A stretch of DNA of 56,818 nucleotides from the NCBI GenBank assembly GCA_944389225.1, contig CALXLP010000006.1:1-56818 (forward strand). Direction: 5' to 3'. Below the pieces are notes generated by a model, which saw only the letters and a list, made by a program, of their open reading frames with translations, did not search any database and was not told where the DNA came from. Below are positions 212 to 34,697 of this stretch, piece by piece (the first letter of the stretch is position 1; each line of letters begins with the position of its first letter). The stretch comes from an uncultured Clostridia bacterium. GTDB taxonomy: Bacteria; Bacillota; Clostridia; TANB77; CAG-508. The position numbers were made by a program, and so were the translations under genes.

Positions 212-416
212 TTCATTAAGTCAGATACTTAATGAAAGATTTAAAGAAGCTACTTTTATGATTATTTATATATTTTCAGCCTATTTTTATCTTATCTTTT
301 TTCCCTTTTACATATTCATTTATTTTGATAAATATCTCTTAAAAACACTTGATTTTCTTTGCAATTATGATATAATTTTTTTAGTAAAAAATTCATTGAG
401 TATCTGACTCAATGAA
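212..416. other. Putative invertible promoter segment 1
   Basis: Two 25-bp sites, 212-236 and 392-416, are inverted copies of each other with two mismatches. Each is itself a dyad around a CAGAT/ATCTG core. Between them lies a sigma-A promoter pointing away from the prepilin-like gene at 1-191. Flipping the segment would aim the promoter at that gene. Inversion is inferred from this architecture and was not observed. Confidence 0.65.
349..376 (+). promoter_or_regulatory. Sigma-A promoter inside invertible segment 1 (OFF orientation)
   Basis: TTGATT (349-354), a 16-nt spacer and TATAAT (371-376). It reads rightward, away from the prepilin-like gene, and meets the hairpin at 392-416 within about 15 nt of the expected start point. 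Confidence 0.6.
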
Positions 417-427
417 TTTATTTTTTT
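392..427 (+). terminator. Terminator formed by the distal site of invertible segment 1
   Basis: TTCATTGAG pairs with CTCAATGAA around a 7-nt loop, followed by a T-rich tract. Read on the minus strand the same hairpin is followed by TTTTTT, so it could also stop transcription of the gene at 441-1976. Confidence 0.65.
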
Positions 428-440
428 CTTTTTGTATCGT

Positions 441-1976
441 TTATTCACATGTTAATCTTCCATCATTTCCTATCTTCCATAATTTCCATCCTTGTTCTAT
501 TAATTTATTATTCTGTATATATGTATTTAAACTAGTTATTACATCTTGAATATCTTCCATTTCAAATACTGTGATTTCTGTTTCTGCTTCATTACTTCCT
601 GTTACCTTTTCTATATTATTTAACATAAAGGAATTGGTTAATTCATATTTTTCTTGATTTTGCCAATATATAAGATCCATTCCACATATGCCTCCTGCAT
701 AAGAGGTAGATTGTATTTCTCCTGTATTCACACAGTTTTGTATAATCAATGTTTGTCGATTTAATCCTGTTATTCCACCTGCTCCACCAAAATACCATAT
801 ACTTCTATTTCCATCATATATAATGGTTCCACCATTTATACAATTTTTTATTTGCGTACTTTCTGTATTGTTACTGCCAGTATTTCCACATAATCCTCCC
901 ACACCATAATTTCCACTTGCGCTAGATTTTATTGTTCCTTCATTTATACAATTTAACATTTCTCCTGTAAATTGGTCTCCACAAAATCCACCAACTGCTG
1001 ATGTTGATTCTATATTTCCCAAGTTCACACAATCCCTTATGTTTAATTGACCTGTACACCTTCCTATTATTCCTGCCGCTACACCACCATATATCTTAAC
1101 ATCACTCATAATATTTTCAATTTGACTCTTTCCTCCTTGAGAAATAATTCCAGCATTATTACTTTGACTATGTATTTCTCCTTTTACTGTAATATTCTTG
1201 AAATTAGCATTATTTAAAGATAAGATGAGACCTGCATTGTCCTGTTTAGAAATATATAAATTACTGATTACATTTTCATCACCATCAAAATTACCTGAAA
1301 ATTGTTGTATTGGTTTAAATCCTTCTCCACTTTGTAATTCTTTTATTAAACTATCTGTATTTCCATCTTGATTCACATCGCCATAGCCTTTTGTTTCACT
1401 ATTTGCATATGATAATTCTGATTTAAAGTTTAAATTAGTACATAACTTTATATATGCATTCGTATATTGACTATAGTTTTTAGACCATTCCATTAAATCT
1501 TCTATACACCAAATCTCATATGGTTTTTCTTCACTTCCATCTAATGTGTTTCCATCTTTTCCAACAGTAATATCTCCTGGATATTTGTCTTCTATGATTT
1601 CAAAAGCTCCTTCTACATTTCCATCTTTATCTACTGTGTAATATCTGTTACTTTCATGAAATACAACTTCAAATTCATCCCCAGCATCTGATACTTCCGT
1701 TTTTTCTTCTCCTGTTTCCTTATCCAGTTGTTCTTGTAATTCACTTTCTTCGATATTTCCATATTTATTATTTCCCATTGCTTGTACAGTTGCTTTTTCT
1801 ATAATTTCTTTTTCATTTGCAATTACTGTTTCTTCTTTTGCTTGACCTGCATTTCCTATGATTCCATTATCTCCTGTAATAGCACTTATTGTGATTCCTG
1901 CTAGAATTAATAGTACAATAATTGTGATAACTAATGCTAATAGTGTAATTCCTTGTTCTTTCTTTATCTTTTGCAT
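441..1976 (-). CDS. Prepilin-like surface protein with GLUG-type repeats
   Basis: 511 aa. Residues 1-9 are a charged leader ending KKEQG, followed by the hydrophobic helix ITLLALVITIIVLLILAG, i.e. a class III prepilin signal without Glu at +5. A short linker (to about 165) is shared with the paralog at 32918-34447. The C-terminal half has repeated Gly-Gly-x-Cys-Gly and Gly-x-x-x-Gly segments (GGFCGD, GGLCGN, GGICGM), resembling the GLUG repeat of bacterial surface proteins and suggesting a beta-solenoid. It would be membrane-anchored and exposed, possibly adhesive; the function is inferred. The start has GGGAGAAG upstream. The candidate switch at 2006-2194 lies immediately upstream. Confidence 0.8.
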   Translation of the reverse strand: MQKIKKEQGITLLALVITIIVLLILAGITISAITGDNGIIGNAGQAKEETVIANEKEIIEKATVQAMGNNKYGNIEESELQEQLDKETGEEKTEVSDAGDEFEVVFHESNRYYTVDKDGNVEGAFEIIEDKYPGDITVGKDGNTLDGSEEKPYEIWCIEDLMEWSKNYSQYTNAYIKLCTNLNFKSELSYANSETKGYGDVNQDGNTDSLIKELQSGEGFKPIQQFSGNFDGDENVISNLYISKQDNAGLILSLNNANFKNITVKGEIHSQSNNAGIISQGGKSQIENIMSDVKIYGGVAAGIIGRCTGQLNIRDCVNLGNIESTSAVGGFCGDQFTGEMLNCINEGTIKSSASGNYGVGGLCGNTGSNNTESTQIKNCINGGTIIYDGNRSIWYFGGAGGITGLNRQTLIIQNCVNTGEIQSTSYAGGICGMDLIYWQNQEKYELTNSFMLNNIEKVTGSNEAETEITVFEMEDIQDVITSLNTYIQNNKLIEQGWKLWKIGNDGRLTCE

Positions 1977-2005
1977 TTTATCTTCTCCCTTCTATACTTT
2001 CTTTT

Positions 2006-2194
2006 AGTTAAGTACTCTAAGAAATATAGAAAGTTGGATTTTATGCATTATTTAGCCTTTTTACTGTCTTTGTTCTTTTTTATTTTCTATTTTCCAATTA
2101 ATAAATTTTGTCATTTTATTTTTCATTTTTTGTTGATATCTATTATATTTATTGGTATAATCAAGGTACAAAAAAAGTTCTAGAGTACTTAACT
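2006..2194. other. Putative invertible promoter segment 2
   Basis: The 14-bp block AGTTAAGTACTCTA at 2006-2019 is perfectly inverted at 2181-2194. The 5-nt core TAAGT is flanked by (T/G)AGT and ACTC. A strong promoter lies inside, pointing away from the gene at 441-1976. The gene-proximal outer half-site is degenerate, so it would not make a strong hairpin if the promoter faced the gene. Inversion is inferred. Confidence 0.65.
2133..2161 (+). promoter_or_regulatory. Sigma-A promoter inside invertible segment 2 (OFF orientation)
   Basis: TTGATA (2133-2138), a 17-nt spacer and TATAAT (2156-2161): a near-consensus promoter with no gene in front of it, only the terminator at 2176-2208. Confidence 0.7.
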
Positions 2195-2208
2195 CTAGGA
2201 CTTTTTTA
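2176..2208 (+). terminator. Terminator formed by the distal site of invertible segment 2
   Basis: CTAGAGT pairs with ACTCTAG and is followed by ACTTTTTT. It sits about 10 nt after the expected start of the promoter at 2133-2161, so that promoter would make only a very short RNA. Confidence 0.65.
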
Positions 2209-2220
2209 TTTGTTTCTTAG

Positions 2221-2640
2221 TTAAAATATCTTTGTAAATTGTGTTCCTATCCAAATCCAATAAATTCCTAATCCCACTAATGTTGCCAATACACTCATTA
2301 TTATATATACTTTTGTGCTGATTTTTCCTTTTCGTTTCATATATATATTAATCGGTAGTAATATTAACAAATATACAATTAAAAGAAACATTCCTATCAT
2401 TGCATTTAAACTTTCTTCACTTTCTGGTACATAATATGCACTTCCCTTAGGTTGATTTGAAAAGAACATATAAAATAATATAAAAAATATGGTATCCATA
2501 AATCCCATAAAACCATTAAATATAACAGACAATGTTGATATGATATATTTTTTTGGCTTTTCTTTAAATTTTATCAATCCAATTATTACACAAATCAATA
2601 TATAAATAATTAATCCTGCTAATATTTTTAATAATACCAT
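2221..2640 (-). CDS. Small membrane protein of unknown function
   Basis: 139 aa. Four hydrophobic segments are visible (about residues 4-24, 38-62, 79-98 and 112-132), so it is an integral membrane protein. A hydrophilic loop at about 63-78 contains PKGSAYYVPESEES. The start is supported by TTAGGAG upstream. No family motif is recognised. It lies downstream of fabI, separated by the terminator at 2682-2720, and is probably a separate unit. Confidence 0.6.
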   Translation of the reverse strand: MVLLKILAGLIIYILICVIIGLIKFKEKPKKYIISTLSVIFNGFMGFMDTIFFILFYMFFSNQPKGSAYYVPESEESLNAMIGMFLLIVYLLILLPINIYMKRKGKISTKVYIIMSVLATLVGLGIYWIWIGTQFTKIF

Positions 2641-2681
2641 TTCTTTTTCTCCTAAGTTTTTTCTTATTTTATCATAAAAGC

Positions 2682-2720
2682 AAAAATTACTCTATACCTT
2701 TTCGATATAAAGTAATTTTT
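2682..2720 (-). terminator. Terminator downstream of fabI
   Basis: AAAAATTACT pairs with AGTAATTTTT; the T-run follows on the minus strand, about 50 nt after the fabI stop. Confidence 0.6.
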
Positions 2721-2771
2721 CTATTAGAATCATCAAAATTATTAAATTCTCAAATAGTATTCATATATAGA

Positions 2772-3542
2772 TTATACACCAACAGTTGAGAAACCATTAT
2801 CTACATGAATAATTTCTCCAGTAATAGCACTTGACATATCACTAAATAAAAATGCTGTAGCATTTCCAACTTGATTGATAGTAACATTTTTATGTAATGG
2901 TGCTCTTTCTTCAACAATATCTAATATTGAACCAAAGTCTTTGATTCCTTTAGCTGATAATGTTTTGATTGGTCCTGCTGAAATTCCATTAATTCTATAT
3001 CCATCTTTTCCTAAATCTCTTGCTAAATATCTAATGCTTGCTTCTAATGCTGCTTTAGCAACTCCCATTACATTGTATCCTTCAATTGCTTTTTCTGATC
3101 CATAATATGTATATGCAACAATGCTTGCTCCTTCATTTAACATTTCTTTTTCTCTTGCCATTCTAACAATAGCAACTAATGAATAAGCACTTACATCTTG
3201 TGCATGTGCATAGCCATCTCTTGATGTTAAGATAAAATCATTTCTTAAATCTTCTGTGTTAGCATGTGCAATAGCATGTAATAATCCATCGATTTTTCCA
3301 TGATCTTTTTTAATTTCTTCTAAGCATTTATCTATATCTTCGTCTTTACTTACATCATTACATACATAAACACTTGCTCTTGGCATATCTTTTACTAAAT
3401 CTTTTACTTTATCTACACTATCTGCTGAACAAGTACAAATAACTTCTGCTCCTTGTTCATAAGCTGATTGTGTTGCTCCCCATGCAATACTCCATTTGTT
3501 TCTTACTCCCATAATTACTACTTTTTTACCTTCTAATAACAT
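2772..3542 (-). CDS. fabI: Enoyl-[acyl-carrier-protein] reductase (FabI)
   Basis: 256 aa, usual FabI length. It reduces trans-2-enoyl-ACP with NAD(P)H in the last step of each fatty-acid elongation cycle in the cytoplasm. Visible features are the variant nucleotide-binding segment GVRNKWSIAWG (12-22), Tyr146/Tyr156 and Lys163 in the Y-x6-K arrangement of FabI, and the NGISAGPIKTLSAKGI substrate loop. The ATG is preceded by TTAGGAGG. accA, accD and accC lie upstream on the same strand, forming a malonyl-CoA and fatty-acid block. A repeated hairpin element (3571-3660) occupies the gap to accA. Confidence 0.95.
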   Translation of the reverse strand: MLLEGKKVVIMGVRNKWSIAWGATQSAYEQGAEVICTCSADSVDKVKDLVKDMPRASVYVCNDVSKDEDIDKCLEEIKKDHGKIDGLLHAIAHANTEDLRNDFILTSRDGYAHAQDVSAYSLVAIVRMAREKEMLNEGASIVAYTYYGSEKAIEGYNVMGVAKAALEASIRYLARDLGKDGYRINGISAGPIKTLSAKGIKDFGSILDIVEERAPLHKNVTINQVGNATAFLFSDMSSAITGEIIHVDNGFSTVGV

Positions 3543-3570
3543 TTTAAATTCCTCCTAATTTATATTTTTA

Positions 3571-3660
3571 TTGTATAGAAAAATCAGCTTTTCTATGTTT
3601 ATCTTATATAAGTACAAGCTTTTTTCATATACAACAAGATTAATCTTTTTTATATGTTAT
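3571..3660. repeat. Dispersed hairpin element, copy A
   Basis: TTGTATAGAAAAA on the left is matched in inverted orientation by TTTTTTCATATACAA, followed by CAAGATTAATCTTTTTTATAT. The same order of parts recurs at 13371-13452 between spoIIIAA and spoIIIAB. It sits between fabI and accA. The role is unknown; it could be an RNA-processing or attenuation hairpin, or a miniature mobile element. Confidence 0.5.
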
Positions 3661-3663
3661 ATT

Positions 3664-4455
3664 TTAGCACATTGTTCTAAATTTTTCATATCTGTTTTCT
3701 ACTAATTCTTTTTTAGATAATGTGTTTAATTCTTTTAAACTTTTTTTAATGTATGATTTTAATTCTTTTAGAACCATTTCTATATCTTCTTGTGCACCAC
3801 CTTCTGGCTCTTTTATAATTTTGTCAATGATTCCAAAATCTTTTAAATCTTTAGCAGTAGACTTCATATCTTCTGCTGCTTCTTTTGCTTTACTTGAATC
3901 TTTATATAAGATACTAGCAAATCCTTCTGGTGATAAGATGGAATATACTGCATTTTCTAACATAGCAATTCTATCTCCCACAGCGATTGCCAATGCACCA
4001 CCACTAGAACCTTCTCCAATAACAATACAAATGATTGGTACTTCTAGTTTTGACATCTCAAATAGATTTCTAGCAATTGCTTCACCTTGACCTCTTTCTT
4101 CTGCTCCCATTCCAGGATATGCACCAGGTGTATCAATAAAGGTGATAATTGGTCTATTGAATTTCTCTGCTTGTTTCATTAATCGTAATGCTTTTCTATA
4201 TCCTTCTGGATTTGGCATTCCAAAATTTCTTTCCATATTTTCTTTTGCTTTTTTTCCTTTTTGTTCTCCTATTACGGTGACTGGCATACCATCAAATGTT
4301 GCAATTCCTCCAACAATTGCTTTATCATCTCCGAAATTTCTGTCACCATGTAATTCCATAAAATCATCAAATAGTCCATTGATATAATCTAATGCTTTTG
4401 GTCTATCCATTTTTCTTGCTAACATTACTCTATCCCATGCTGTTATTTTTGCCAT
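3664..4455 (-). CDS. accA: Acetyl-CoA carboxylase carboxyltransferase subunit alpha
   Basis: 263 aa, the short Firmicutes form. With AccD it moves the carboxyl group from carboxybiotin to acetyl-CoA, giving malonyl-CoA. Family motifs seen are [20 protein letters not shown] with [13 protein letters not shown], and the glycine-rich oxyanion loop [16 protein letters not shown]. It starts 16 bases after the accD stop with a GGAGGAAG ribosome site, so the two subunits are surely co-transcribed and probably coupled in translation. Confidence 0.95.
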
Positions 4456-4471
4456 GTTTCTTCCTCCTTTT

Positions 4472-5317
4472 TTATTTGTGTAGTCTGATTAATTTTGCAA
4501 TTGTTGATTTCATATCTTTTCTTTCTACTATTTTATCAATAAATCCATGTTCTAATAAAAATTCTGAACTTTGGAATCCTTCTGGTAATTTTTGATTAAT
4601 GGTCTGTTCTATAACCCTTGGTCCTGCAAATCCAATTAAGGCATGTGGTTCTGCTAAAATGATATCTCCTAAGCTTGCAAAACTTGCTGTTACACCACCT
4701 GTTGTTGGATCTGTTAAGACAGATATATATAATTGTCCTGCTTTATCTAATTTGGTAAGTGCACTTGATGTTTTCGCCATTTGCATTAAAGATATCATAC
4801 CTTCTTGCATTCTAGCACCACCTGATACACAGAATATAATTAATGGCAATTTCTTTTTAGCTGCTGTTTCAATTGCAAGTGTAATTCTTTCTCCTACTGC
4901 TGATCCCATACTTCCCATTAAAAAGTTTCCATCCATAACAGCCAAAACTGCTTTTTCTCCTTCTATTTCACATGTACCACATTTTACAGCTTCTTCTATT
5001 TTTGTTTTTTCTTTTAACATTTCTACTTTTTTCATATATCCTTTAAAATTCAATGGATCTTTTGTATGAATATCTCCACCAATTTCTTTAAAGGTTCCTT
5101 CATCTGCAATTTGTTTAATTCTTCTTCTTGATGATAATCTAAAATGTTTGCCACAGTTTGGACACACACTCAAATTTTGGTGTAAATCGTCTTTATAGAT
5201 AATTTCTTTACATTTATCACATTTTACCCATTTTCCAATCATCATATCTGAAGCTTTTTCATTCTTGACTCTCTTTTCTTCCTTTTCGTTTACCTTTTTT
5301 ACTTTGTCTATTACCAA
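4472..5317 (-). CDS. accD: Acetyl-CoA carboxylase carboxyltransferase subunit beta
   Basis: 281 aa. Partner of AccA in the carboxyltransferase. The N-terminus carries the typical zinc ribbon C33-x2-C36 ... C52-x2-C55. The crotonase-like domain follows, with [12 protein letters not shown] and the segment [12 protein letters not shown]. The start codon is TTG at 5317, chosen because AAGGAGGG lies 7 nt upstream and no better ATG fits. Its own promoter (5346-5374) lies in the gap to accC, preceded by a 16-bp element shared with the accC promoter. Confidence 0.95.
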
Positions 5318-5345
5318 GGTATTTCCCTCCTTTTATATCTTTGTT

Positions 5346-5374
5346 ATTATATATGTATTTTGAATTTATTTCAA
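5346..5374 (-). promoter_or_regulatory. accD promoter
   Basis: On the minus strand TTGAAA (5374-5369), a 17-nt spacer and TATAAT (5351-5346), about 30 nt before the accD start. Confidence 0.55.
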
Positions 5375-5390
5375 CTAGGATAAGTAGTCA
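5375..5390 (-). promoter_or_regulatory. Shared acc element (candidate operator), accD copy
   Basis: TGACTACTTATCCTAG on the minus strand, directly upstream of the -35 box. The accC promoter has the same block (14 of 16 bases) in the same place at 6932-6947. A common fatty-acid regulator is the likely reader; its identity is unknown and the block does not match the classical FapR palindrome. Confidence 0.5.
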
Positions 5391-5430
5391 ATTTTTTGTT
5401 AAAAGAGAATAAAATCAATAGATGAAATAA

Positions 5431-5457
5431 GAAATTAGCATTATAATTGCTAATTTC
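5431..5457. terminator. Hairpin between accC and accD
   Basis: GAAATTAGCA pairs with TGCTAATTTC about 10 nt after the accC stop, flanked by T-rich sequence on both strands. It probably ends or attenuates accC transcription ahead of the accD promoter. Confidence 0.45.
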
Positions 5458-5465
5458 TTTTTCTA

Positions 5466-6809
5466 TTACATATTAAATTCTTTTTTTATAAAAGATGTGT
5501 CATAATTGTTTGTTTTAAAGTTTTCATTTTTTAGTATTTTCAATAAAAAGTCTATATTGGTTGTAATTCCTTCTACAACAAATTCTGCCACTGCACTTTT
5601 CATTTTTGCGATAGATTCTTCTCTATTTTTTCCATGAACAATTAATTTTGCAAGCATAGAATCATATGTAGGTGGAACTGTATATCCACTATATATAGCA
5701 GTATCTACTCTTACACCATTTCCTCCTGGAATATGTAATCCTGTTATCGTTCCTGGACATGGCATAAAGTTTTTATCTGGATTTTCTGCATTAATTCTTA
5801 CTTCCATAGAATGTCCATTAAATTTAATATCTTCTTGTTTATATGTTAATTCTTCTCCACTTGCAATTTTGATTTGTTCTTTTATGATATCTACACCTGT
5901 TACCATTTCTGTTACAGGGTGTTCTACTTGTATTCTTGTATTCATTTCCATGAAATAGAAATCTTTATTTTTGTCAACTAAAAATTCAATGGTTCCTGCA
6001 TTAGAATAACCAATTTCTTTTACTGCCTTTACTGCTACTTCTCCCATTTTCTTTCTAGTTTCTTCATCTAGTATACCACTTGGTGTTTCTTCTAATACTT
6101 TTTGATTTCTTCTTTGTACTGAGCAATCTCTTTCTCCTAAATGGATACAGTTTCCGTGCTCATCTGCTAATATTTGAATTTCCACATGTCTTGGATTTTC
6201 TACAAATTTTTCTAAATAAAGGCTATCATCATTAAAAGATACTTTTGCTTCTTGTTTAACAATATCATATTCTTTTTCTAATTCTTCTTTAGAAAAGGCA
6301 ACTCTAATGCCTCTTCCTCCACCACCTGCTGATGCTTTTAACATAACAGGATATTTAATTTGTTCTGCTAAGTTGACTGCTTGTTCTTTTGAATAGATTA
6401 ATCCATCTGATCCAGGAACAACTGGAACTCCTGCTCTTTTCATCGTTTCTTTTGCTCTTGATTTATTTCCCAACAATTCGATTAGTTTATAGTCTGGTCC
6501 AATAAATTTGATTCCTGTTTCTTGACAAATTTTTGCAAAATTTGGATTTTCTGATAAGAATCCAAATCCTGGGTGAATACTATCTGCACCTGTTAAGCAT
6601 GCTGCTTCTAATATGGCTTTTACATTTAAATAACTTTTATTAGATGGTGCTGGTCCTACACAAATGGCTTCATCTGCTAATTGTACATGTAAGGCATTTT
6701 TATCTACTTCTGAATAAATGGCAACTGTTCTAATTCCCATTTCTCTACATGCTCTGATAATTCTAACTGCAATTTCTCCTCTATTGGCAATTAATACTTT
6801 TTTTAACAT
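5466..6809 (-). CDS. accC: Acetyl-CoA carboxylase, biotin carboxylase subunit
   Basis: 447 aa, full length. It carboxylates the biotin of BCCP using ATP and bicarbonate. Visible are the start MLKKVLIANRGEIA, the ATP-grasp glycine loop GGGGRG (162-167), the HLGERDCSVQRRNQK segment and the active-site stretch FMEMNTRIQVEHPVTE. AccB/BCCP and fabZ, its common neighbours, are not in the window: the next gene upstream is a prepilin-like gene. The promoter at 6902-6930 and a terminator-like leader hairpin at 6862-6890 precede it. The ribosome site is GGAGGAATT. Confidence 0.95.
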   Translation of the reverse strand: MLKKVLIANRGEIAVRIIRACREMGIRTVAIYSEVDKNALHVQLADEAICVGPAPSNKSYLNVKAILEAACLTGADSIHPGFGFLSENPNFAKICQETGIKFIGPDYKLIELLGNKSRAKETMKRAGVPVVPGSDGLIYSKEQAVNLAEQIKYPVMLKASAGGGGRGIRVAFSKEELEKEYDIVKQEAKVSFNDDSLYLEKFVENPRHVEIQILADEHGNCIHLGERDCSVQRRNQKVLEETPSGILDEETRKKMGEVAVKAVKEIGYSNAGTIEFLVDKNKDFYFMEMNTRIQVEHPVTEMVTGVDIIKEQIKIASGEELTYKQEDIKFNGHSMEVRINAENPDKNFMPCPGTITGLHIPGGNGVRVDTAIYSGYTVPPTYDSMLAKLIVHGKNREESIAKMKSAVAEFVVEGITTNIDFLLKILKNENFKTNNYDTSFIKKEFNM

Positions 6810-6861
6810 GAAAATTCCTCCTATGAAAGATAATTTATTTTTATATTTTCTATATTCTCTT

Positions 6862-6890
6862 AAAAAAAGACAGCTTACATACTGTCTTTT
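6862..6890 (-). terminator. Terminator-like hairpin in the accC leader
   Basis: On the minus strand AAAAGACAG pairs with CTGTCTTTT, then more T. It begins about 5 nt after the start point expected from the promoter at 6902-6930. It could stop read-through from the prepilin-like gene upstream or act as an accC attenuator. Confidence 0.5.
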
Positions 6891-6901
6891 ATACCTTATA
6901 T

Positions 6902-6930
6902 ATTATATATTTATTTTTTATTTTTTTCAA
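6902..6930 (-). promoter_or_regulatory. accC promoter
   Basis: TTGAAA (6930-6925), a 17-nt spacer and TATAAT (6907-6902) on the minus strand, the same architecture as the accD promoter. Confidence 0.5.
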
Positions 6931-6931
6931 G

Positions 6932-6947
6932 CTAGGATAGGTGGTCA
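6932..6947 (-). promoter_or_regulatory. Shared acc element (candidate operator), accC copy
   Basis: TGACCACCTATCCTAG on the minus strand, immediately upstream of the -35 box. It differs from the accD copy at only two positions (C for T at both). Confidence 0.5.
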
Positions 6948-6968
6948 GTAATTATCGATTACTTTCCT

Positions 6969-8051
6969 TTATTTCCAGTTTTCTGGAATTTCACTATAAT
7001 TTGTCAAATTCTCACATCCTGTATAACATGCATTTCCACTAATACCACTTCTTTCCCATAAAGGTATGGCATTTCCAGTCAAAGATGTACAGTTATAAAA
7101 TGCATTGTCTGCATTTTTAATATTAGGACAATTATCAAATAAATCAGATGGAATTCGTGTTAATGATGTACAATTATAAAACATAGCCCTAATATTTGTT
7201 AAATTACCAAAGCTATTTTCTTTTGGAGAAACAATTTCTGTTAAATTGGTACAATTAGAAAAATTAACATTAATCATTTTATTTTCTCCCCAATCTATTA
7301 TTTTTTGTAACGCTGGTGAATTAACTATTATTTGTGTAGCATATATCTTTATATTAAATATTTTATTTTTTTCTTCATATTTATGCATTACTGGTATAGG
7401 AGCCCCTATAACTGCTACAGATATATTATCATTGAAACTAGCTATTTTTTGTGATTTTCCAATTTCAGTCCCTTCTAATTTGCTATATGTTCCATCTCCC
7501 CAATCTATTATTCCATCCATAGAAATCGCTAATAAAACTGTTCCTTTATCTCCCACATTCACATCAATCTTAAAACCTTTTTCTACCTTTTCTCTTTCTT
7601 GTTCTGTTAAATCTGCCACCTCATAAGTAAAATTTTTCATATATTCTTCTTCAGTTTTAATCTCTAAATTTCCTGTTTCATAATTTGATGTAACATAATA
7701 TATATTCCCTGTATCTGAAAATGTTATCATATAGCTGTTATCTACTTTTTGAACAATTGTTTCTCCTTTACCAGCTACACTATCTAATTCTGTTTGTAAC
7801 CCTTGATAATCTTCTCCTACTGTTTCTGGTTCATAATATACTATTCCTAAAGCTGTTAAGGCTGTTTTTATCTGTTCCTCTTCTGTTGCCACAACATTAT
7901 CTTCTTTAGCATTTTGCGCTCTTGTTAATATTCCATTATTACCTGTTAATGTTGCAATTGTTACACCTGCCAATATTAATAATACAATAATTGTAATAAC
8001 TAAAGCTATTAGTGTAATTCCTTTGTTTTTTCTTGATTCTTTTGTTTTCAT
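6969..8051 (-). CDS. Prepilin-like surface protein with BspA-type leucine-rich segment
   Basis: 360 aa. The N-terminus has the class III signal RKNKG followed by ITLIALVITIIVLLILAG, again without Glu at +5. The middle carries IDWGDGTYSKLEG, a motif found in BspA-like (DUF285-type) surface proteins. The C-terminal third repeats a pattern N-C-x-x-L-T ... F-Y-N-C-T-S-L-T, typical of BspA leucine-rich repeats. It should be membrane-anchored and exposed, possibly binding host or matrix ligands (inferred). The start is preceded by GGGAGG. It differs from the other three prepilin-like genes after residue 45 but has the same upstream switch architecture. Confidence 0.8.
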   Translation of the reverse strand: MKTKESRKNKGITLIALVITIIVLLILAGVTIATLTGNNGILTRAQNAKEDNVVATEEEQIKTALTALGIVYYEPETVGEDYQGLQTELDSVAGKGETIVQKVDNSYMITFSDTGNIYYVTSNYETGNLEIKTEEEYMKNFTYEVADLTEQEREKVEKGFKIDVNVGDKGTVLLAISMDGIIDWGDGTYSKLEGTEIGKSQKIASFNDNISVAVIGAPIPVMHKYEEKNKIFNIKIYATQIIVNSPALQKIIDWGENKMINVNFSNCTNLTEIVSPKENSFGNLTNIRAMFYNCTSLTRIPSDLFDNCPNIKNADNAFYNCTSLTGNAIPLWERSGISGNACYTGCENLTNYSEIPENWK

Positions 8052-8085
8052 CTCTTCTTTTTCCTCCCTTTTAACTTTCTATTAT

Positions 8086-8272
8086 TTAGTTACTCTAAGA
8101 AATTTACATGTATATTAAAACCTGCTTATAAGTTATTTTTGTTAACATTCTTACTGTTAATTTCTTTCATATTCTCAAAAAATTTTTTATAAAAAAATAA
8201 ATTAAAATCCTATTGACAGCCCTGCAATTTATTGTTATCATAATTGTATGAAATCTTTCTTAGAGTAACTAA
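8086..8272. other. Putative invertible promoter segment 3
   Basis: The 17-bp block TTAGTTACTCTAAGAAA at 8086-8102 is perfectly inverted at 8256-8272; the core is TAGTT. Inside is a consensus -35 promoter directed away from the gene at 6969-8051. The distal copy is completed by ACTCTAAGA to form a terminator, the gene-proximal copy is not. Inversion is inferred. Confidence 0.7.
8213..8241 (+). promoter_or_regulatory. Sigma-A promoter inside invertible segment 3 (OFF orientation)
   Basis: Perfect -35 TTGACA (8213-8218), a 17-nt spacer and TATCAT (8236-8241). As oriented it drives only an RNA of about 40 nt ending at the hairpin 8258-8289. Confidence 0.65.
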
Positions 8273-8289
8273 CTCTAAGATTTTTTATT
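8258..8289 (+). terminator. Terminator formed by the distal site of invertible segment 3
   Basis: TCTTAGAGT pairs with ACTCTAAGA around AACTA, followed by TTTTTTATT. Confidence 0.75.
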
Positions 8290-8458
8290 AATATTATGTT
8301 TCTTACAAAAGTTCTATTTTTTTATTTATAAGTAAAGCAAAAACCATTTTTTCAACGCAATACTTCCATTTAAGTTTCCTATAAATACAGAGTAAATTAC
8401 TTATTTTTCAGATAGTTTTGATTTACAATTTAAATAAAATTAGCTTATTTTTATATAC

Positions 8459-8473
8459 TGACATTAAATGTCA
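8459..8473. promoter_or_regulatory. Candidate operator upstream of the XRE gene
   Basis: Perfect dyad TGACATT-A-AATGTCA, about 60 nt before the XRE start. It is a plausible self-regulation site for a Cro/CI-type repressor; that role is inferred from position only. Confidence 0.4.
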
Positions 8474-8532
8474 ATACAACAATTACTTCTTTTGTGTCAT
8501 AATTACTTTAAACATTAGTTTAGGGTGATGTT

Positions 8533-8739
8533 ATGATAAAAGAAAAAAGAAAGGCAAAAAAATATACACAAGAAAAAATGTCTGAAATACTAGGAATTAG
8601 TTTGAGACAATATATACGAATTGATAACGAAGAAGATTTACCCAGAAGAGATGTTTTAAAAAATCTGATTTTAGAATTAGAATTAACAGATGAAGAATTA
8701 GGTGAATACATAAGAATTATGGCAAATAAAATAGCTTAA
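8533..8739 (+). CDS. Small XRE (Cro/CI-like) DNA-binding protein
   Basis: 68 aa. Nearly the whole protein is a helix-turn-helix domain: TQEKMSEILGISLRQYIRID matches the XRE helix 2-turn-helix 3 pattern, and an acidic helix follows. The start is preceded by AGGGTGAT. It stands alone on the plus strand between a prepilin-like gene with its putative switch and the spoIIIA operon, and ends in a strong terminator. A role in controlling the neighbouring surface gene is possible but not shown. Confidence 0.75.
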   Translation: MIKEKRKAKKYTQEKMSEILGISLRQYIRIDNEEDLPRRDVLKNLILELELTDEELGEYIRIMANKIA

Positions 8740-8782: not shown

Positions 8783-8844
8783 TTATATGATGAAAACTAG
8801 TTTTTTATCTTCGCTTACACATAAGTTTCTTCATATACATTATC

Positions 8845-16568: not shown

Positions 16569-16630
16569 AAAAACCTCCATTCGAGTCATATACTCTAATA
16601 AATTTTAAGTATGATATTTCTTATAATATA

Positions 16631-29026: not shown

Positions 29027-29038
29027 TGAAAATGTATC

Positions 29039-29076
29039 AAAATGGACAGAGCTTATTTCAAGTTCTGTCCATTTTT
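29039..29076 (+). terminator. Terminator of mgtA
   Basis: AAATGGACAGA pairs with TCTGTCCATTT, followed by TTTT, 12 nt after the mgtA stop. Confidence 0.7.
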
Positions 29077-29080
29077 ACTA

Positions 29081-29112
29081 TTTTTGTCCATTTTGACACG
29101 TCACCAACGTCC
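29081..29112. repeat. Dispersed GGGACGTG repeat, copy 3 (short, degenerate)
   Basis: TTTTTGTCCATTTTGACACG followed by TCACCAACGTCC, a shortened relative of the copies at 9611 and 14575, between mgtA and the phosphodiesterase gene. Confidence 0.5.
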
Positions 29113-29120
29113 ATTTATTT

Positions 29121-29663
29121 TTACTCTTTATATCTATATTCTTCTATCACATTTCCATCAACATCTTTTATGACAATATCTTTTTCTTCTATCATTGCAT
29201 AACTATGTGGTGTATTTTCTTTTGGTAATGAGATAGAACCTGGATTTACAAATAATTGATTATCATATTTTTTAATAAAACATGTATGGAAATGTCCGTA
29301 AAACATAATATCAAAATCTTCTGGTGGCAAATTATCTATATTGTATTTATGTCCATGTGTAAAAAACATATTTTTTCCATTAATTTTTTCTAATATATGT
29401 TCTTTTATATCAAATTCAGAAACCATTTGATCTACTTCTGCATCACAGTTTCCTCTTACAACTTCTAGTTTATCTTTTACACTATTTAATACTTTTGTTA
29501 CTTTCATTGGATCATATCCATCTGTTAATGGATTTCTAGGTCCATGATAATATAAATCTCCTAATACAACTATTTTTTCTGGTTTTTCTTTTTTAATAAT
29601 TTCTTTTAATTTGTCAGCATATACACCTGACCCATGAATATCTGATACAACCAATACTCTCAT
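29121..29663 (-). CDS. YfcE/MJ0936-type metallophosphodiesterase
   Basis: 180 aa from the ATG at 29663 (MRVLVVSDIHGS), which has AAAGGA 9 nt upstream. The metallophosphoesterase ligands appear in order: SDIHGS, LGDLYYHGPRN, RGNCD, FTHGHKYN and YGHFHTC. The size and motifs match the YfcE family of Mn2+-dependent phosphodiesterases active on model substrates and possibly 2',3'-cyclic nucleotides. Convergent with mgtA. The real substrate is not known. Confidence 0.88.
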   Translation of the reverse strand: MRVLVVSDIHGSGVYADKLKEIIKKEKPEKIVVLGDLYYHGPRNPLTDGYDPMKVTKVLNSVKDKLEVVRGNCDAEVDQMVSEFDIKEHILEKINGKNMFFTHGHKYNIDNLPPEDFDIMFYGHFHTCFIKKYDNQLFVNPGSISLPKENTPHSYAMIEEKDIVIKDVDGNVIEEYRYKE

Positions 29664-29791
29664 AAAACTCATTCCTTTCTTCCTTAGCTAGTTTTTGTAT
29701 TTTTTAATTATGATATATTGTAAGATATATTATTATAAAATTCAACCCCTATATAGAAAAAAATGGCATCATTTTTTGATACCACTTCTTT

Positions 29792-30304
29792 CTATTCCAT
29801 CAACTTTTTGATATCTTCATCTTGTTTTAACTTGTTTGATATAAAATGATATGCTTGCTTATTTTGTTTCACAGCAATTTCCGCCAACTCTTTATCATCA
29901 ATCAATCGTTTACTAGCATATTTGATAATAATCCCCTTATTTTCTACTGCTGCTTTTACTACTTCTTTATCATCCCTTAATTCTTCTGATGCATAATATA
30001 ATGCTTGCCCATAATGTTTACAACATTCTAACATAATCTCCTTGTCTCCTGCTAATTCCTCTGATGCATAACAAATGGTCCAAGGTGCTGTTTTAGTAGC
30101 TAATTGTAACACTTCTTTATCTCCTTTTAACCTTGTACTTGCAAATTCTAAGGCTTCTCCATCTTGTTTTAAAGCTTCCATAACCACTTCTTTGTCATCT
30201 TGTAATTCTTCTGATGCCAATTCTAGGTTTTTTCCACTTTCTTTTACTGCTTGTAGGATTATTTCTTTGTTATTACTATTTTTTTGTATTTCTTCTATTT
30301 CCAT
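29792..30304 (-). CDS. DUF4116-like repeat protein
   Basis: 170 aa from the ATG at 30304, which has GAAAGGGA 8 nt upstream. The protein is built from about six repeats of roughly 24 residues with the pattern ASEELxxDKEVVxxAxxxxGxAL (for example LASEELQDDKEVVMEALK, YASEELRDDKEVVKAAV). This matches DUF4116-type repeats, which form helical solenoids with unknown partners. No catalytic residues are visible. It is not part of an obvious operon. Confidence 0.8.
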   Translation of the reverse strand: MEIEEIQKNSNNKEIILQAVKESGKNLELASEELQDDKEVVMEALKQDGEALEFASTRLKGDKEVLQLATKTAPWTICYASEELAGDKEIMLECCKHYGQALYYASEELRDDKEVVKAAVENKGIIIKYASKRLIDDKELAEIAVKQNKQAYHFISNKLKQDEDIKKLME

Positions 30305-30695
30305 TTTATCAGTCCCTTTCTTCAATCATATACATTATATCACATTTCATTACTAATTCTATATAGATAAATCAATTATTTTAGAATATCTTATCATTAA
30401 AAGATTGTCCAAGAAAAAAAGCTTACATCTGAAATTGCGTGGAGCCTTAAACATGGCTCTTAATGCCTTTGAGAAAAAGAACTTCCGTTACTCATTTGTA
30501 TTTTTGTATTGGCATTTAAAACAGCGTTTTTTAGGGTATTTTTATTAGCTGATGTTGCATCCCCAAATACATACGAAATGAAAATCGCACGAGATTTAAT
30601 CGACTTCTGGTATTCATCGTATAAAAAATCTTCAGCACCATGAGTAATTTTTACTCTAATGGGCTTCAGTATTCGTACTGGAGCCCATTTAAATA
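30305..30695. other. Gene-free stretch with GC-richer unidentified sequence
   Basis: The core (about 30405-30690) is less AT-rich than the flanks. Both strands show short open frames: a minus frame of about 75 codons ending at 30460 (contains VKITHGAEDFLYDEYQKS) and a plus frame of about 56 codons ending in SSYKKSSAP near 30643. Neither has a ribosome site. At 30659-30688 TGGGCTTCAGTA pairs with TACTGGAGCCCA. This could be a decayed mobile-element piece or a structured RNA; I cannot tell. Confidence 0.4.
30659..30688. terminator. Hairpin downstream of the UMPH-1-like gene
   Basis: TGGGCTTCAGTA pairs with TACTGGAGCCCA (two G-T or mismatched positions) around a 4-6 nt loop, just after the stop of the gene at 30696. 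The following T-run is poor on both strands, so termination is uncertain. Confidence 0.4.
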
Positions 30696-31493
30696 TTATA
30701 TATACCTTTCTATATCATAAAAATTATTTTCTTCTGTTAACACAATGTCAAAGTTCTTTTTATACACTTCCAAATTTTCTGTAACATTCTTATTTAAAAA
30801 CCCTATTTTTAAAGATTTATTTTCTGGATATTCTCCCATCATATGAATATCTTCAACTAAATCCCCAATCACAATTCTATATTCCTTTTCCTTTATTCTT
30901 TCTTCTACTTTTAAATCTCCTAATTTATCTATATTTTTATTTAATGTATGAATAATATTATCAGAAAATTTTATCATATCTCCATTTTCGTCAAACTTTA
31001 TAAAATTACCAATAATTGTTATGTTGTTATAATAACAATTGTTTTCTTTTAAAAATTGTTCTATTACATTTCCAATACCTGCTGAAAAGATAATTACTGG
31101 TATTTGATTTTCATATAATTTAGAAAGAAAATCTTTTGCTCCTTCTCTTAATTTTAGATAACTATTACTAACGCAATTTTTTAGTTTTTTCCTTGTAAGA
31201 TGATATGTATAATATAAATTCATAGAATTTGTATACCATTCTAACATATATTTTTCTTTTTCTTTCATATCTATCGTATAATCTAATTCTATTGGTCCAT
31301 ATTTTTCATAAAGCTTATTTAAATCATTAGCTATTTCCTGCCCCATTGCCTTTTTATTGGCACTAGTTGCCCAAGAGTCTTCACTATCACTTGATGTAAT
31401 TGTCTTATCATAATCCATGAAAACACATATATTATCTTTATTCATTTTTTCTTTTAGTTCTCTTATTTTGGCTTCATTATTTAGATATATCAT
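30696..31493 (-). CDS. UMPH-1-like pyrimidine 5'-nucleotidase (HAD superfamily)
   Basis: 265 aa. HAD motif I is FMDYDKTITSSDSEDSW (D27, D29), followed by LREGAKDFLSKLYENQIPVI and motif II FSAGIGNVIEQFL. Motif IV is VIGDLVEDIHM. This order matches UMPH-1/NT5C3 nucleotidases, best known from eukaryotes, which convert UMP and CMP to nucleosides. It is uncommon among bacteria, so horizontal origin is possible. It is 26 bases downstream of the Rpn gene and probably co-transcribed. Confidence 0.8.
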   Translation of the reverse strand: MIYLNNEAKIRELKEKMNKDNICVFMDYDKTITSSDSEDSWATSANKKAMGQEIANDLNKLYEKYGPIELDYTIDMKEKEKYMLEWYTNSMNLYYTYHLTRKKLKNCVSNSYLKLREGAKDFLSKLYENQIPVIIFSAGIGNVIEQFLKENNCYYNNITIIGNFIKFDENGDMIKFSDNIIHTLNKNIDKLGDLKVEERIKEKEYRIVIGDLVEDIHMMGEYPENKSLKIGFLNKNVTENLEVYKKNFDIVLTEENNFYDIERYI

Positions 31494-31519
31494 AAATTTT
31501 CTCCTTATAAATAATACTA

Positions 31520-32416
31520 TTATAATAAATTAATCTGTTCTTCTGTTAAATTTGTTATTTTTTTTATTAATTCTATATCTAATCCTTCTTCTTTCATTTT
31601 TTTTGCTATTTTCTTTTTTTCTTCCGTCTTTCCTTCAGCTTTTCCTTCTTCCATTCCCTTTCTTCTTGCCTCATTTATTTCTGTATTATATGTTAATCTA
31701 CTTCTTTCTCTGATTTCATATAACTCTCTTTCATATTCATCTGCACTCATTTGTGTTAATTGTTCTACTGCTTCTTTAATTTCTTCATTTTCATTTTTAT
31801 ATTCTTCCATCATTTTTTCATCGCCCCCAATTACATATAACCATTTTTCTAGCAAATCTGCCACTTTTGGTTTCTTTTTCTTAAACTTTGGTAATTCAAT
31901 AATATAGTATTTTACCATGTCTGTTAAATATTCTTCCTCTTTTTCATATCCTATATTAACATATCTAATTTCTTCTGTTTTCTCATACTTTAACATGGCT
32001 AAACTTAAATATGCATTTCGTTTTACAACATTATCATTTATAATACATATAACAATTGTATCTTTTGCTTTTTTATATTCTTCTGATACTTTTATTTCTC
32101 CTGCTATTAATTTTGCATTATATACCACTAATCTTCTTTCTATGGCCGTTGTATTCCCCACTTGTAATTTAATATCTATCATTGTGTTATTATTTATTTC
32201 TGCTTTGATATCTAAGATACTTAATTTCTCCTCTATTGCTTCTTTAGGTATTTCTGGATTTTTTATTTCTATCTTTTGTATATCAATTTTTAATATTGCC
32301 TCTAATAAACTTTTTAGAATTTTTTCATTGCCACCTTTTCCAAATATCCTTTTAAATACATAATCATTTGATAATGGTAACATATTTACTTCTTTTATTT
32401 TATTTAAGTTGCTCAT
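31520..32416 (-). CDS. Rpn-family PD-(D/E)XK nuclease / transposase-like protein
   Basis: 298 aa from the ATG at 32416 (MSNLNKIKE), which has AAAGGAG 7 nt upstream. The N-terminus LPLSNDYVFKRIFG is the family signature; LDIKAEIN followed by MIDIKLQVG gives the D...(D/E)xK nuclease core. A lysine-glutamate coil (RRKGMEEGKAEGKTEE) near the C-terminus is usual. Rpn proteins promote recA-independent recombination in E. coli. A possible promoter (TTGACA 32626-32621, TTATAA 32602-32597 on the minus strand, 18-nt gap) lies upstream. Mobile-element relics often carry this gene. Confidence 0.85.
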   Translation of the reverse strand: MSNLNKIKEVNMLPLSNDYVFKRIFGKGGNEKILKSLLEAILKIDIQKIEIKNPEIPKEAIEEKLSILDIKAEINNNTMIDIKLQVGNTTAIERRLVVYNAKLIAGEIKVSEEYKKAKDTIVICIINDNVVKRNAYLSLAMLKYEKTEEIRYVNIGYEKEEEYLTDMVKYYIIELPKFKKKKPKVADLLEKWLYVIGGDEKMMEEYKNENEEIKEAVEQLTQMSADEYERELYEIRERSRLTYNTEINEARRKGMEEGKAEGKTEEKKKIAKKMKEEGLDIELIKKITNLTEEQINLL

Positions 32417-32917
32417 GTTTTTTTCTCCTTTCATTCTATCAAATTAATTTCTTTTATTCAATAAATCTATTTGAATTTATTAAATGCATTTAGAGCTTTT
32501 TGTTCATATTTTATTTATTTCTTTTTATACATGAAAAATTTATCTTTATCTTTTCTTCTCATAAACTCTATTTGTATTTATAGAAAATTTGGTTTTTTAT
32601 AACATCATAATTAAGCTAAATGTCAAATTATTGATATACAAAATATTAAAACTTCTATAATGGATTTTTAAATGAAATATAAATCTAGATATAAAAATAA
32701 TTTAAAATTAATTTTTAACACAGAATACATAAATGAACTTTTTAAAATGTTTGAATAAAATATTTTATTTTTATAAATATACTCGTTATTTAAGAGCAAA
32801 CTATAAAATTTAACTTGAATATAAATATATTTTAATAAAGGCTTACAAATAAAAAATCTCTAATTGCATTTCCATTATTTTACAATACAATTAGAGATTT
32901 TTCAATATTTTATTTTC
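32417..32917. other. Gene-free AT-rich stretch between rpn and prepilin-like gene
   Basis: About 500 bases of very AT-rich sequence. The only signals are the possible rpn promoter (32597-32626) and the terminator at 32851-32902. No frame looks coding. Confidence 0.5.
32851..32902 (-). terminator. Terminator of the prepilin-like gene at 32918-34447
   Basis: AAAAATCTCTAATTG pairs with CAATTAGAGATTTTT across a 21-nt loop, starting 16 nt after the stop codon. Confidence 0.7.
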
Positions 32918-34447
32918 TTATTTTTCAAATGTTGGTAATCCATTAGCATCTAATTTCCAATTATATAGTGTTACTCCTTTATCTTTATAATCATTTTTAT
33001 GTGCTTCTACATATGCATTTAATTTATCTATTATGCTTTTATCTCCTTTAGAAAATGCTATAGAATTTTCATTTGCTACCACGTTCTCATTTATTATAGT
33101 ATCTAAATAATAACAACTATCTAAATTTACGGTTGCTCCTCCCCATACACAATAGAAATTATAACTACTTCCACTTGGTTTTGAGATTGTTCCTAAGCTG
33201 CATGTATTTATAATATTTCTAGTTCCAGTATTATATGCTCCTCCAATTATTCCACTTGTTCTGCTCTTTCCTATTATTTCCCCTAAATTATAACAATTTA
33301 CTATAATCGTATTTCCATTAATATCATCAAAATTAATAATTCCTCCAACACTATCTCCTTGAAGATTTGCTAAATTACAACAATTTATGATTTCTACATT
33401 TCCCCATACTGAGCCGACAATTCCTCCTAAAGAACTACTACTGTTTATATTTCCAGAAATACATAAATTATACAATTTACTTCCAGAAGCTACTCCTGTT
33501 ATTCCACCGCCTCCTTGACACTCATAATATACATTTACTAAACTTAAATTTTTTAAAGTAGCCGTATATATTGTGTTAAATAGTCCTCCTCCATTTTTTG
33601 TATTCTCATATAAATTCTGAATTTCATGATTTTGTCCATCAAATATTCCTGCAAACATTAAATTTCCTGAACCTGTATTTTCACTAATGGGTACAAATCC
33701 AACTCCATTTCTATCTGTTAATAATTCTCTTAAATTTTGTGTACTATTTTCGTCTATCACATATGCTTCTTCCTCTTCATCATAACGCCATCCAATAGAT
33801 AAATCCGCGTATGATACTGTTGAATTAAAGTTTAAGTTCTTTGTTAGTATAAAATTTTTACCTGAAAATGTATTTCTTACCGCTTCTTTTATTTCTCCAT
33901 TTTCTATATAATTCCCTTTTCCTCTTGATATATTAGACAGTACCACTAAATCTTCTATACATGAAATTTCATATGGTTTTTCTTCACTTCCATCCAATGT
34001 TTCTCCATTTTCTCCTATCGTAAAATCTCCTGGATTTTCATCTTTATTAATCGTATATTCTCCTTCTACATTTCCATCTTTGTCAACTATATAATATCGA
34101 TTACTATCAATAAATATAACCTCAATTCCATCTCCTATATCTGTTGCTTCTGTTTTTCCTTCTCCTGTTTCTTTATCTAACTCACTTTGTAATTCATTTT
34201 CTTCTATATTTCCATATTTGTTATTTCCCATTGCTTGTACAGTTGCTTTCTCTACAATTTCTTTTTCATTGGCTATTTCTGTTTCTTCTTTTGCTCTACC
34301 TGCATTTCCAATAATTCCATTATCCCCTGTTATCGCACTTATGGTAATTCCTGCTAAGATTAATAACACGATAATAGTGATAACTAATGCCAATAATGTA
34401 ATTCCTTCTTGATTTTTTATTTTACTTTTTTGTATATGTTTTTTCAT
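32918..34447 (-). CDS. Prepilin-like surface protein with glycine-rich solenoid domain
   Basis: 509 aa. Leader IKNQEG then ITLLALVITIIVLLILAG, a class III signal lacking Glu at +5. Residues 10-165 closely follow the paralog at 441-1976, including YYIVDKDGNVEGEY and TLDGSEEKPYEI; the rest diverges. The C-terminal half has many short Gly- and Asn-rich strands (GGGITGVASGSKLYN, SLGGIVGSVWGN), GLUG-like. It should be membrane-anchored and exposed. Conserved N-half and variable C-half suggests duplication followed by recombination of outer domains. Upstream lies the putative switch at 34506-34697. Confidence 0.8.
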   Translation of the reverse strand: MKKHIQKSKIKNQEGITLLALVITIIVLLILAGITISAITGDNGIIGNAGRAKEETEIANEKEIVEKATVQAMGNNKYGNIEENELQSELDKETGEGKTEATDIGDGIEVIFIDSNRYYIVDKDGNVEGEYTINKDENPGDFTIGENGETLDGSEEKPYEISCIEDLVVLSNISRGKGNYIENGEIKEAVRNTFSGKNFILTKNLNFNSTVSYADLSIGWRYDEEEEAYVIDENSTQNLRELLTDRNGVGFVPISENTGSGNLMFAGIFDGQNHEIQNLYENTKNGGGLFNTIYTATLKNLSLVNVYYECQGGGGITGVASGSKLYNLCISGNINSSSSLGGIVGSVWGNVEIINCCNLANLQGDSVGGIINFDDINGNTIIVNCYNLGEIIGKSRTSGIIGGAYNTGTRNIINTCSLGTISKPSGSSYNFYCVWGGATVNLDSCYYLDTIINENVVANENSIAFSKGDKSIIDKLNAYVEAHKNDYKDKGVTLYNWKLDANGLPTFEK

Positions 34448-34505
34448 TTTTTATACCTCTTTTCTACATTTTCTTTTGTTTTTAAACTATTTTTTATTTT
34501 CTTTT

Positions 34506-34697
34506 AGTTTCTTACTCTAAGAAATTGATAATATCTTTCTAACTATTGTTATTGATAGATTTATAGGTATAAACTATAGTAAAAAAGTCTTTCATTTTTT
34601 ATAAAAATTTATCGTTAATTTAAAGAAAATTTTTATTGACATATCCTTACTTTATTGATATGATTTGTATACAAAAGGATTCTTAGAGTAAGAAACT
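34506..34697. other. Putative invertible promoter segment 4
   Basis: The 18-bp block AGTTTCTTACTCTAAGAA at 34506-34523 is perfectly inverted at 34680-34697; the core is TTCTT. The promoter inside points away from the prepilin-like gene at 32918-34447 and into a terminator, as in the other three segments. Inversion is inferred. Confidence 0.7.
34636..34664 (+). promoter_or_regulatory. Sigma-A promoter inside invertible segment 4 (OFF orientation)
   Basis: TTGACA (34636-34641), a 17-nt spacer and TATGAT (34659-34664). It reads rightward and runs into the hairpin 34680-34711 within about 10-15 nt of the start point. Confidence 0.65.

Follow-up and report, generated by a model that had tools for sequence, protein, structure and literature searches.

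The window analysed here is the whole of a 56,818-nucleotide contig (CALXLP010000006.1; contig C6 below) of an uncultured Clostridia bacterium, taken from assembly GCA_944389225.1, which comprises 1.72 Mb in 109 contigs and is 86.6% complete. This genome very probably carries a regulon in which about 22 invertible promoters each lie before a prepilin-like surface gene of their own, all of them served by one tyrosine recombinase. Four of them are in the window, where a sequence-only reading had proposed invertible promoters under a single recombinase with shared arms and a pair-specific core; that interpretation is supported by the analysis below. As in an inverton, the promoter of each locus lies inside a segment bounded by inverted repeats, beside the gene that it would regulate. 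The window genome is labelled G000, and related genomes, contigs and loci carry G-, C- and L-numbers, respectively; relatives with a recombinase of at least 73% identity are deposited as uncultured Clostridia, Clostridium sp. or Eubacteriales.

The paired sites before the four prepilin-like genes of the window are real (Table 1), and their cores are those originally given: CAGAT (222/402), TAAGT (2009/2187), TAGTT (8087/8267) and TTCTT (34509/34690). The common site design is TTCTTAGAGT-N5-ACTCTAAGAA. The segment length of 190–205 bp in the sequence-only reading includes the arms; from first to last core base the four segments measure 183–186 bp, and across all loci the span is nearly fixed (median 184.5 bp). 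Its description of the sites as inverted copies of GAGT-N5-ACTC holds for the gene-distal site of each pair and fails for the proximal ones: at locus 1 the proximal palindrome is built on AAGT/ACTT, and those of loci 2–4 keep the inner arm (ACTCTAAGAA) next to an outer arm that is not its mirror (ends TTAGT, TTATT and TTAGT). GAGT-N5-ACTC occurs five times in the window against 0.24 expected, a number reached by none of 100 shuffles, and the gene-distal sites account for four of them; for the fifth, at 16583, no same-core partner was found. Each of the four segments also contains, as had been claimed, a strong sigma-A-like promoter that faces away from the gene.

A search of the whole genome for further such pairs places the window's four among about 20. 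Strand-hits of the pattern AGAGTN5ACTC number 48, compared with 5 for its reversed control; a search under a single rule finds 20 complete promoter-inversion cassettes, each before a prepilin-like gene, and a palindromic-seed search finds 19 complete pairs with identical cores, 19 different ones in all, every pair standing before a prepilin-like open reading frame (ORF). Approached from the genes, a search with the prepilin N-terminus gives 31 matches, of which 26 are strong (E no higher than 2e-13), and a pair or half-pair is present at 22 of these 26. The seven strong N-termini outside the 19 pairs are on C46 (by eye, a pair with AAGT/ACTT arms), C1 (a complete pair), C13 (one site only, the contig beginning within the segment) and C7, C8, C9 and C80, where no pair was seen in the upstream DNA read by eye. 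One more distal site lies at the end of contig C64. The lone palindromes at C6:16583, C20:3588, C2:93459 and C18:3243, which have no same-core partner, and C60:5322, for which none was seen by eye, were taken as chance. We note that the first of these (window 16583–16595) sits at the start of a 656-amino-acid ORF, and that the same 14-mer is found at G025:C3:5492.

Relatives that keep the sites without matched cores had been named as evidence that would tell against inversion. When sites in G000 and four relatives were paired by the inner arm only, core identity being no condition, 61 of the 63 pairs had cores identical at 5/5 positions (for another 16 palindromic seeds there was no arm partner). 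One of the two exceptions (L042, 4849/5047) is a mis-pairing, the true partner being at 5012; the other (L235), a palindrome 87 bp from a contig start for which no true partner was seen, looks like one. The core base adjoining the inner arm is T in 56 of the 61, so that effectively four bases vary. Cores in the window genome are mostly but not strictly private, TAGTT being used at both C6 and C1 and CAGAT at both C6 and C13. Selection for unique cores was considered and is not supported: no equal pairs occur among 18 cores against 2.1 expected at random, two repeats appear once C1 and C13 join the 18, and the diversity fits random drift. The idea of switching without cross-locus rearrangement is qualified by the two cores that are reused and by a diversity close to random expectation.

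Loci were typed as OFF or ON from promoter direction and the N-terminal motif of the adjacent gene. Among 100 unique loci, 79 are OFF and 6 ON; the remaining 15 were untyped and dropped. The typed promoters have an extended -10 in 83/85 cases and 17-bp spacing in 82/85; the scan used for typing was restricted to 19–31 nt from the core, and its spacing result is partly built in. A scan of the whole segment places the promoter 23–27 nt from the core in 18 of 19 pairs, C5 being the exception. In the OFF orientation the promoter reads almost directly into the distal site, and at 52 loci a terminator-like hairpin with a U tract was present on the OFF path, as assembled, in 49 cases and on the simulated ON path in one; two of the three OFF-path failures are owed to a flank cut at a contig end. 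The T tract lies outside the segment, and inversion carries the promoter and half of the hairpin to the gene while the rest stays behind. The distal recombination site appears to double as an OFF-state terminator, a role that the sequence-only reading missed. At L085 (C46) and L086 (C13) an extra terminator-like hairpin, seen by eye, lies within the segment beside the gene-proximal site, and could keep transcription from running through into an OFF gene. That the cassettes are only bidirectional terminators with away-pointing promoters, their matched cores a product of duplicating ready-made units, would agree with the distal site being a good terminator and with many cassettes being plainly paralogous. 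It is nevertheless extremely unlikely, since copies would keep the parent core, yet the 18 arm-paired cores of the window genome all differ; the proximal site is no terminator on the path tested, yet keeps its core and inner arm; and inverted paralogues exist.

A failure to find any inverted segment in related genomes had likewise been named as contrary evidence; related genomes were checked, and both orientations exist between loci, paralogues and species. In the window genome C1 is ON, with the promoter facing the gene and two complementary terminator arms at opposite ends of the segment, and further ON loci are L324 (G021), L291 and L294 (G061), and L312 and L313 (G055). Among 284 locus pairs with alignable flanks and segments, which are not independent, 275 have the same orientation and nine are inverted: L294 versus five others, L083 versus L213, L313 versus L200, L312 versus L240, and L323 versus L327, the last two being G021 paralogues with the common core TAAAT. 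Truncated prepilin remnants that have kept their invertons are found at L196, L236, L285, L291, L294, L312, L313 and L321. Similar endings recur between genomes (for example ILAD[SP]HIFLNIPQ in G061 and G021, VLNA[SF]AWS in G007 and G061), and LFSYDEKIKCSNSK ends two remnants in G055.

The presence of both orientations within one population is suggested indirectly, by contig ends only. Eight contig ends in five genomes (Table 1) stop 6, 10 or 11 bases into the inner arm, where chance would give roughly 0.003–0.006 per genome (computed for four genomes). For three of the eight both orthologue arms are known, and the point at which they diverge is exactly the contig end. Both flanks of the G027 CTAGT locus end at ACTCTAAGAA, and the inner arms of its complete orthologue, C11 of the window genome, diverge at that base; in G058, contig C40 begins 11 bases inside the arm, and the arms of its orthologue C31 likewise part after base 11. 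The contig ends of the orthologous loci G027:C30 and G000:C64 fall on the same base. An assembly graph would give such ends if the reads contained both orientations. The point at which the two outer arms begin to agree lies 77 bases before the end of G027:C27 and 99 before the end of G021:C14, and these lengths fit the same graph on the assumption that they equal the assembly k values. The 77-bp overlap of C18 and C90 was rejected as an inversion signature, because the shared bases (by eye) run 11 nt outside the core, where the flanks differ. Operators of a dimeric looping repressor, with no inversion, would have two-fold symmetric sites at nearly fixed spacing with a promoter between them, as seen here, but would have no reason to match at their centres within a locus and differ between loci. 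With the ON alleles, the inverted locus pairs and the arm-boundary contig ends left unexplained, and with a site set that co-varies with a recombinase, we consider a repressor of this kind very unlikely.

The genome was also searched for a tyrosine or serine recombinase, and a tyrosine recombinase gene, encoded in two frames, was found at C18:1908-2841, behind a prepilin gene with its own inverton. The intact G007 copy matches PF00589 (Phage_integrase) over positions 2–170 of 172 (E 1.9e-33), a complete catalytic domain; in the window genome's copy the match is split into two pieces, each in a frame of its own. The protein falls below the NCBIfam cut-offs for XerA (110.7 bits vs 220), XerC (85.3 vs 335) and XerD (70.3 vs 330); its best solved relative by sequence is the "Int protein" of PDB 6en0 / 6emz (E 2.6e-22, residues 142–310), which we take to be Tn1549 Int.

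Recombinase and sites occur together. In a survey of 55 related genomes a recombinase of at least 84% identity is present in five, and the strict site TTAGAGTN5ACTCTAA is found in all five and in one of the 50 others (Fisher p 1.7e-6, kinship ignored); that one, G019, has a single strict site, and the stretch around it contains four palindromes but no pair. Nine further genomes have recombinases of 73–93% identity, and seven of these show a clear excess of AGAGTN5ACTC (20–53 against 4–6 in the control); in G064, where the copy is 41% identical, the counts are 5 and 2. The arms in G021, whose recombinase has 54% identity, are TTTAAGT-N5-ACTTAAA, with 28 sites against none in that genome's own control. 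The same pattern is absent from eight of nine other genomes searched and occurs once in G027, and its reversed control has nine matches in G013 and one apiece in G023 and G025. The G021 sites also have matched cores, mostly away-pointing promoters and prepilin-like genes. A different arm set goes with the divergent enzyme, and the arms thus follow the enzyme. Of 14 recombinase loci examined, only five have a prepilin gene nearby. The C18-type tyrosine recombinase is likely the enzyme for the sites. We also note five homologues of about 50% identity with open frames of 312–318 amino acids in the small genome G012 (L100, L112 and L114–L116), in whose short flanks no core-matched pairs were seen.

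The core matches, inverted alleles, contig ends and recombinase co-occurrence together support the proposal of one recombinase with shared arms and a variable core. The recombinase would recognise the conserved 10-bp arms, and the 5-nt core would be the region of strand exchange, where a match would be required, so that a locus would recombine with itself. In the OFF orientation, the common one, the promoter would fire away from the gene into an intrinsic terminator formed by the distal-site hairpin; inversion would split that hairpin, the U-tract half being outside the segment, and turn the promoter towards the gene, whose product would presumably pass through the genome's type IV pilus system. 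Catalysis by this recombinase and transcription of the ON alleles are what we infer from these arrangements.

Several points weigh against this reading, which is drawn from assembled sequence. ON alleles are rare (6/85 typed loci), and in four of the six the prepilin frame stops 12–32 amino acids past the motif start, leaving C1 and L324 as the only ON loci with a long frame; only these two would express a long protein. Stops within 60 amino acids of the motif are found in 4/6 ON against 8/79 OFF loci (p 0.003). The ON share is 4/12 among remnant loci and 2/73 among the others, which may be read simply as an enzyme that works in both directions and selection that holds intact genes mostly OFF, the numbers being small and the comparison post hoc. 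At five of the eight fitting contig ends we infer the second arm; in the case of G007:C95, the sole same-core locus compared (in G025, orthology not established) shares 10 arm bases against 6 kept. Some contig breaks at sites that do not fit inversion (G000:C41 and C18/C90; G021:C21/C39 and C19/C53) mean that hairpins or strain variation also break contigs. G057 (4 vs 2 in the control) and G060 (3 vs 3), with recombinases of 84–85%, have no excess of AGAGTN5ACTC; each has at least one core-matched pair. The window genome has other tyrosine recombinases with open frames, on C39 (296 amino acids), C15 (340) and C42 (417), and the inversion could be real and the work of one of these or of a housekeeping XerC/XerD-like enzyme. 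This is improbable given that the C18 recombinase tracks the sites in 55 genomes and that its divergent relative goes with different arms, a comparison that covered the C18 type only. Finally, the recombinase frame is broken in the window genome.

The frame break coincides with a tract of 9–11 T residues, present in 14 species between the region of the first catalytic Arg and the HxxR-Tyr part. The frame after the tract is 0 in three species, +1 in eight and +2 in three, and so is broken in 11 of 14. A homopolymer within coding sequence and frame differences between genomes, the pattern of slipped-strand contingency, are both found; the ORFs listed for the window (44.6 kb) contain five A8 tracts and no sense-strand T tract of at least 8. 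Beyond the tract the ratio of nonsynonymous to synonymous substitution rates (dN/dS) is about 0.023 (simple Nei-Gojobori method, 14 species, mean dS about 1.1), and it is the same for the 55 pairs made up of two out-of-frame copies; purifying selection of this strength implies that the gene is in use. A relic system, once invertible, now mostly frozen OFF and with a pseudogene for a recombinase, would account for the broken frames and for the 79 OFF loci, but it is quite improbable: the low dN/dS between out-of-frame copies means that the distal part is translated in frame often enough for selection to act, core identity persists, and the contig ends suggest mixed populations in the broken-frame genomes G000, G027, G058 and G021.

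For a recombinase still in use, purifying selection on the distal part despite the broken frame suggests that slippage gates the enzyme. DNA slippage, transcriptional slippage or programmed frameshifting would each keep it low and intermittent, and none is preferred. T9 alone can be explained by Phe-Phe-Leu codon bias in an AT-rich genome, and as evidence the frames and the selection carry more weight than the tract by itself; the 54% copy of G021 (L099, G021:C53, near 2170) is also frame-broken at nearly the same codon, with no homopolymer there. We tentatively suggest, as somewhat less than an even prospect, a two-tier phase variation in which poly-T slippage in the catalytic domain gates the recombinase: a change of frame would open an interval in which about 22 core-barcoded pilin switches could flip independently, and would then close it, storing the pattern, with arms (enzyme specificity) and cores (locus address) evolving separately.

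The switched proteins have a near-constant N-terminus and differing bodies. Their N-terminal motif, GITLIALVITIIVLLILAG, bears Ala at the position of the Glu5 of classical pilins. Scanning of four of these proteins gave one GLUG match and one LRR_5 match below cut-off. The latter is in the protein of 6969-8051 (E 6e-5), which also has a sub-cut-off N_methyl match (E 0.0021, 18.0 bits vs cut-off 21.2); no Pfam N_methyl match was found for the proteins of 441-1976 and 32918-34447. An AlphaFold model of the locus 2 protein from a two-sequence alignment had a mean predicted local distance difference test score (pLDDT) of 52.3, with only a middle beta-rich part mostly above 70, and was not used. 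Type IV pilus machinery is present in the genome, as a cluster on C9 (Table 1) and one Peptidase_A24 protein on C1; no inverton was seen upstream of the cluster's own prepilin. Different cells are likely to show different prepilin-like proteins, few at once if the assemblies represent majorities.

Table 1. Features of the four loci of the window (window coordinates), the pilus-like cluster, and contig ends within inner arms
Feature	Position	Strand	Remarks
Locus 1 prepilin-like gene	1..209	-	cut by window (contig) start; start uncertain, ATG 191 or GTG 209
Locus 1 gene-proximal recombination site	212..236	no strand	TTCATTAAGT-CAGAT-ACTTAATGAA
Locus 1 promoter	349..376	+	TTGATT-16-TATAAT; directed away from gene
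Locus 1 gene-distal site	392..416	no strand	TTCATTGAGT-ATCTG-ACTCAATGAA; with the T tract after it, terminator-like hairpin on + strand
Locus 2 prepilin-like gene	441..1976	-	511 amino acids
Locus 2 gene-proximal site	1999..2023	no strand	core TAAGT
Locus 2 promoter	2133..2161	+	TTGATA-17-TATAAT; directed away from gene
Locus 2 gene-distal site	2177..2201		core ACTTA; terminator-like hairpin, -18.1 kcal/mol
Locus 3 prepilin-like gene	6969..8051	-	360 amino acids
Locus 3 gene-proximal site	8077..8101	no strand	core TAGTT
Locus 3 promoter	8213..8241	+	TTGACA-17-TATCAT; directed away from gene
Locus 3 gene-distal site	8257..8281		core AACTA; terminator-like hairpin
Locus 4 prepilin-like gene	32918..34447	-	509 amino acids
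Locus 4 gene-proximal site	34499..34523	no strand	core TTCTT
Locus 4 promoter	34636..34664	+	TTGACA-17-TATGAT; directed away from gene
Locus 4 gene-distal site	34680..34704		core AAGAA; terminator-like hairpin
Type IV pilus-like cluster L333 (G000:C9:34500-44500)	1596-8617		T2SSF, two T2SSE, A24_N_bact, N_methyl prepilin
Inner-arm contig ends	G000:C64; G007:C61, C95; G021:C103; G027:C30, C38, C41; G058:C40

Elsewhere in the window, 41803-42158 holds nested inverted repeats (72-nt arms, 90% complementary, with 30-nt and 36-nt inner arms) between a Crp-like regulator gene and a GDP-mannose 4,6-dehydratase-like gene; they resemble a palindromic element of the miniature inverted-repeat transposable element (MITE) type.

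The arrangement draws several known ideas together into a compact, testable design in which one enzyme would serve many separately addressable switches and the site would double as OFF terminator. The relatives amount to a natural experiment in recombinase specificity, with two enzyme versions, two arm sets and many cores, of use in studies of tyrosine-recombinase recognition and for orthogonal inversion memories; if slippage does gate the recombinase, gut bacteria would here have a stochastic switch of hierarchical form. Invertible-promoter families under a single recombinase are already known from Bacteroides fragilis, Clostridioides difficile and Mycoplasma penetrans. Apparently new, as far as our searches go, are a locus-specific core with shared arms on such a scale, a recombination site that serves as OFF terminator for an internal promoter, an arm specificity that has changed naturally along with the enzyme, and a slippage-prone recombinase frame. 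No description of the combined design was found in titles, abstract openings and some passages of the open-licence PMC literature, a coverage that does not establish its absence from print.

The Int of PDB 6en0 / 6emz is the integrase of a conjugative transposon and is not known to go with invertible promoters. In M. penetrans the P35/Mpl lipoprotein genes have invertible promoters, with repeats that are, as far as is known, common to the loci. Both systems have a paralogous surface family, a small invertible promoter for each gene, a tyrosine recombinase and individual switching; the clostridial one differs in phylum and gene family and in its locus-specific cores, and we know of no terminator role or frame-broken recombinase in M. 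penetrans. A tyrosine recombinase and an invertible promoter region are mentioned, along with multiple surface lipoproteins, in PMC9187656. The B. fragilis Mpi system, with at least thirteen invertible regions according to passages of PMC5903667, is similar in having one master recombinase, many scattered invertible promoters and surface structures as its output; Mpi is a serine recombinase, unlike the tyrosine recombinase here, which goes with locus-specific cores. C. difficile RecV is a clostridial tyrosine recombinase that acts on several loci, with seven sites in strain R20291 whose repeats are mostly unrelated (excerpts of PMC5903667 and PMC7446863). At cwpV, in the sections of PMC2784873 consulted, the repeat junction is predicted to hold a terminator in the OFF orientation but not in the other, most DNA is OFF, and the promoter is upstream of, and outside, the invertible segment. 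The OFF terminator at a repeat junction is comparable to ours, but here the promoter is inside the segment, the recombination site itself makes the hairpin, and some 22 loci have common arms and differing cores.

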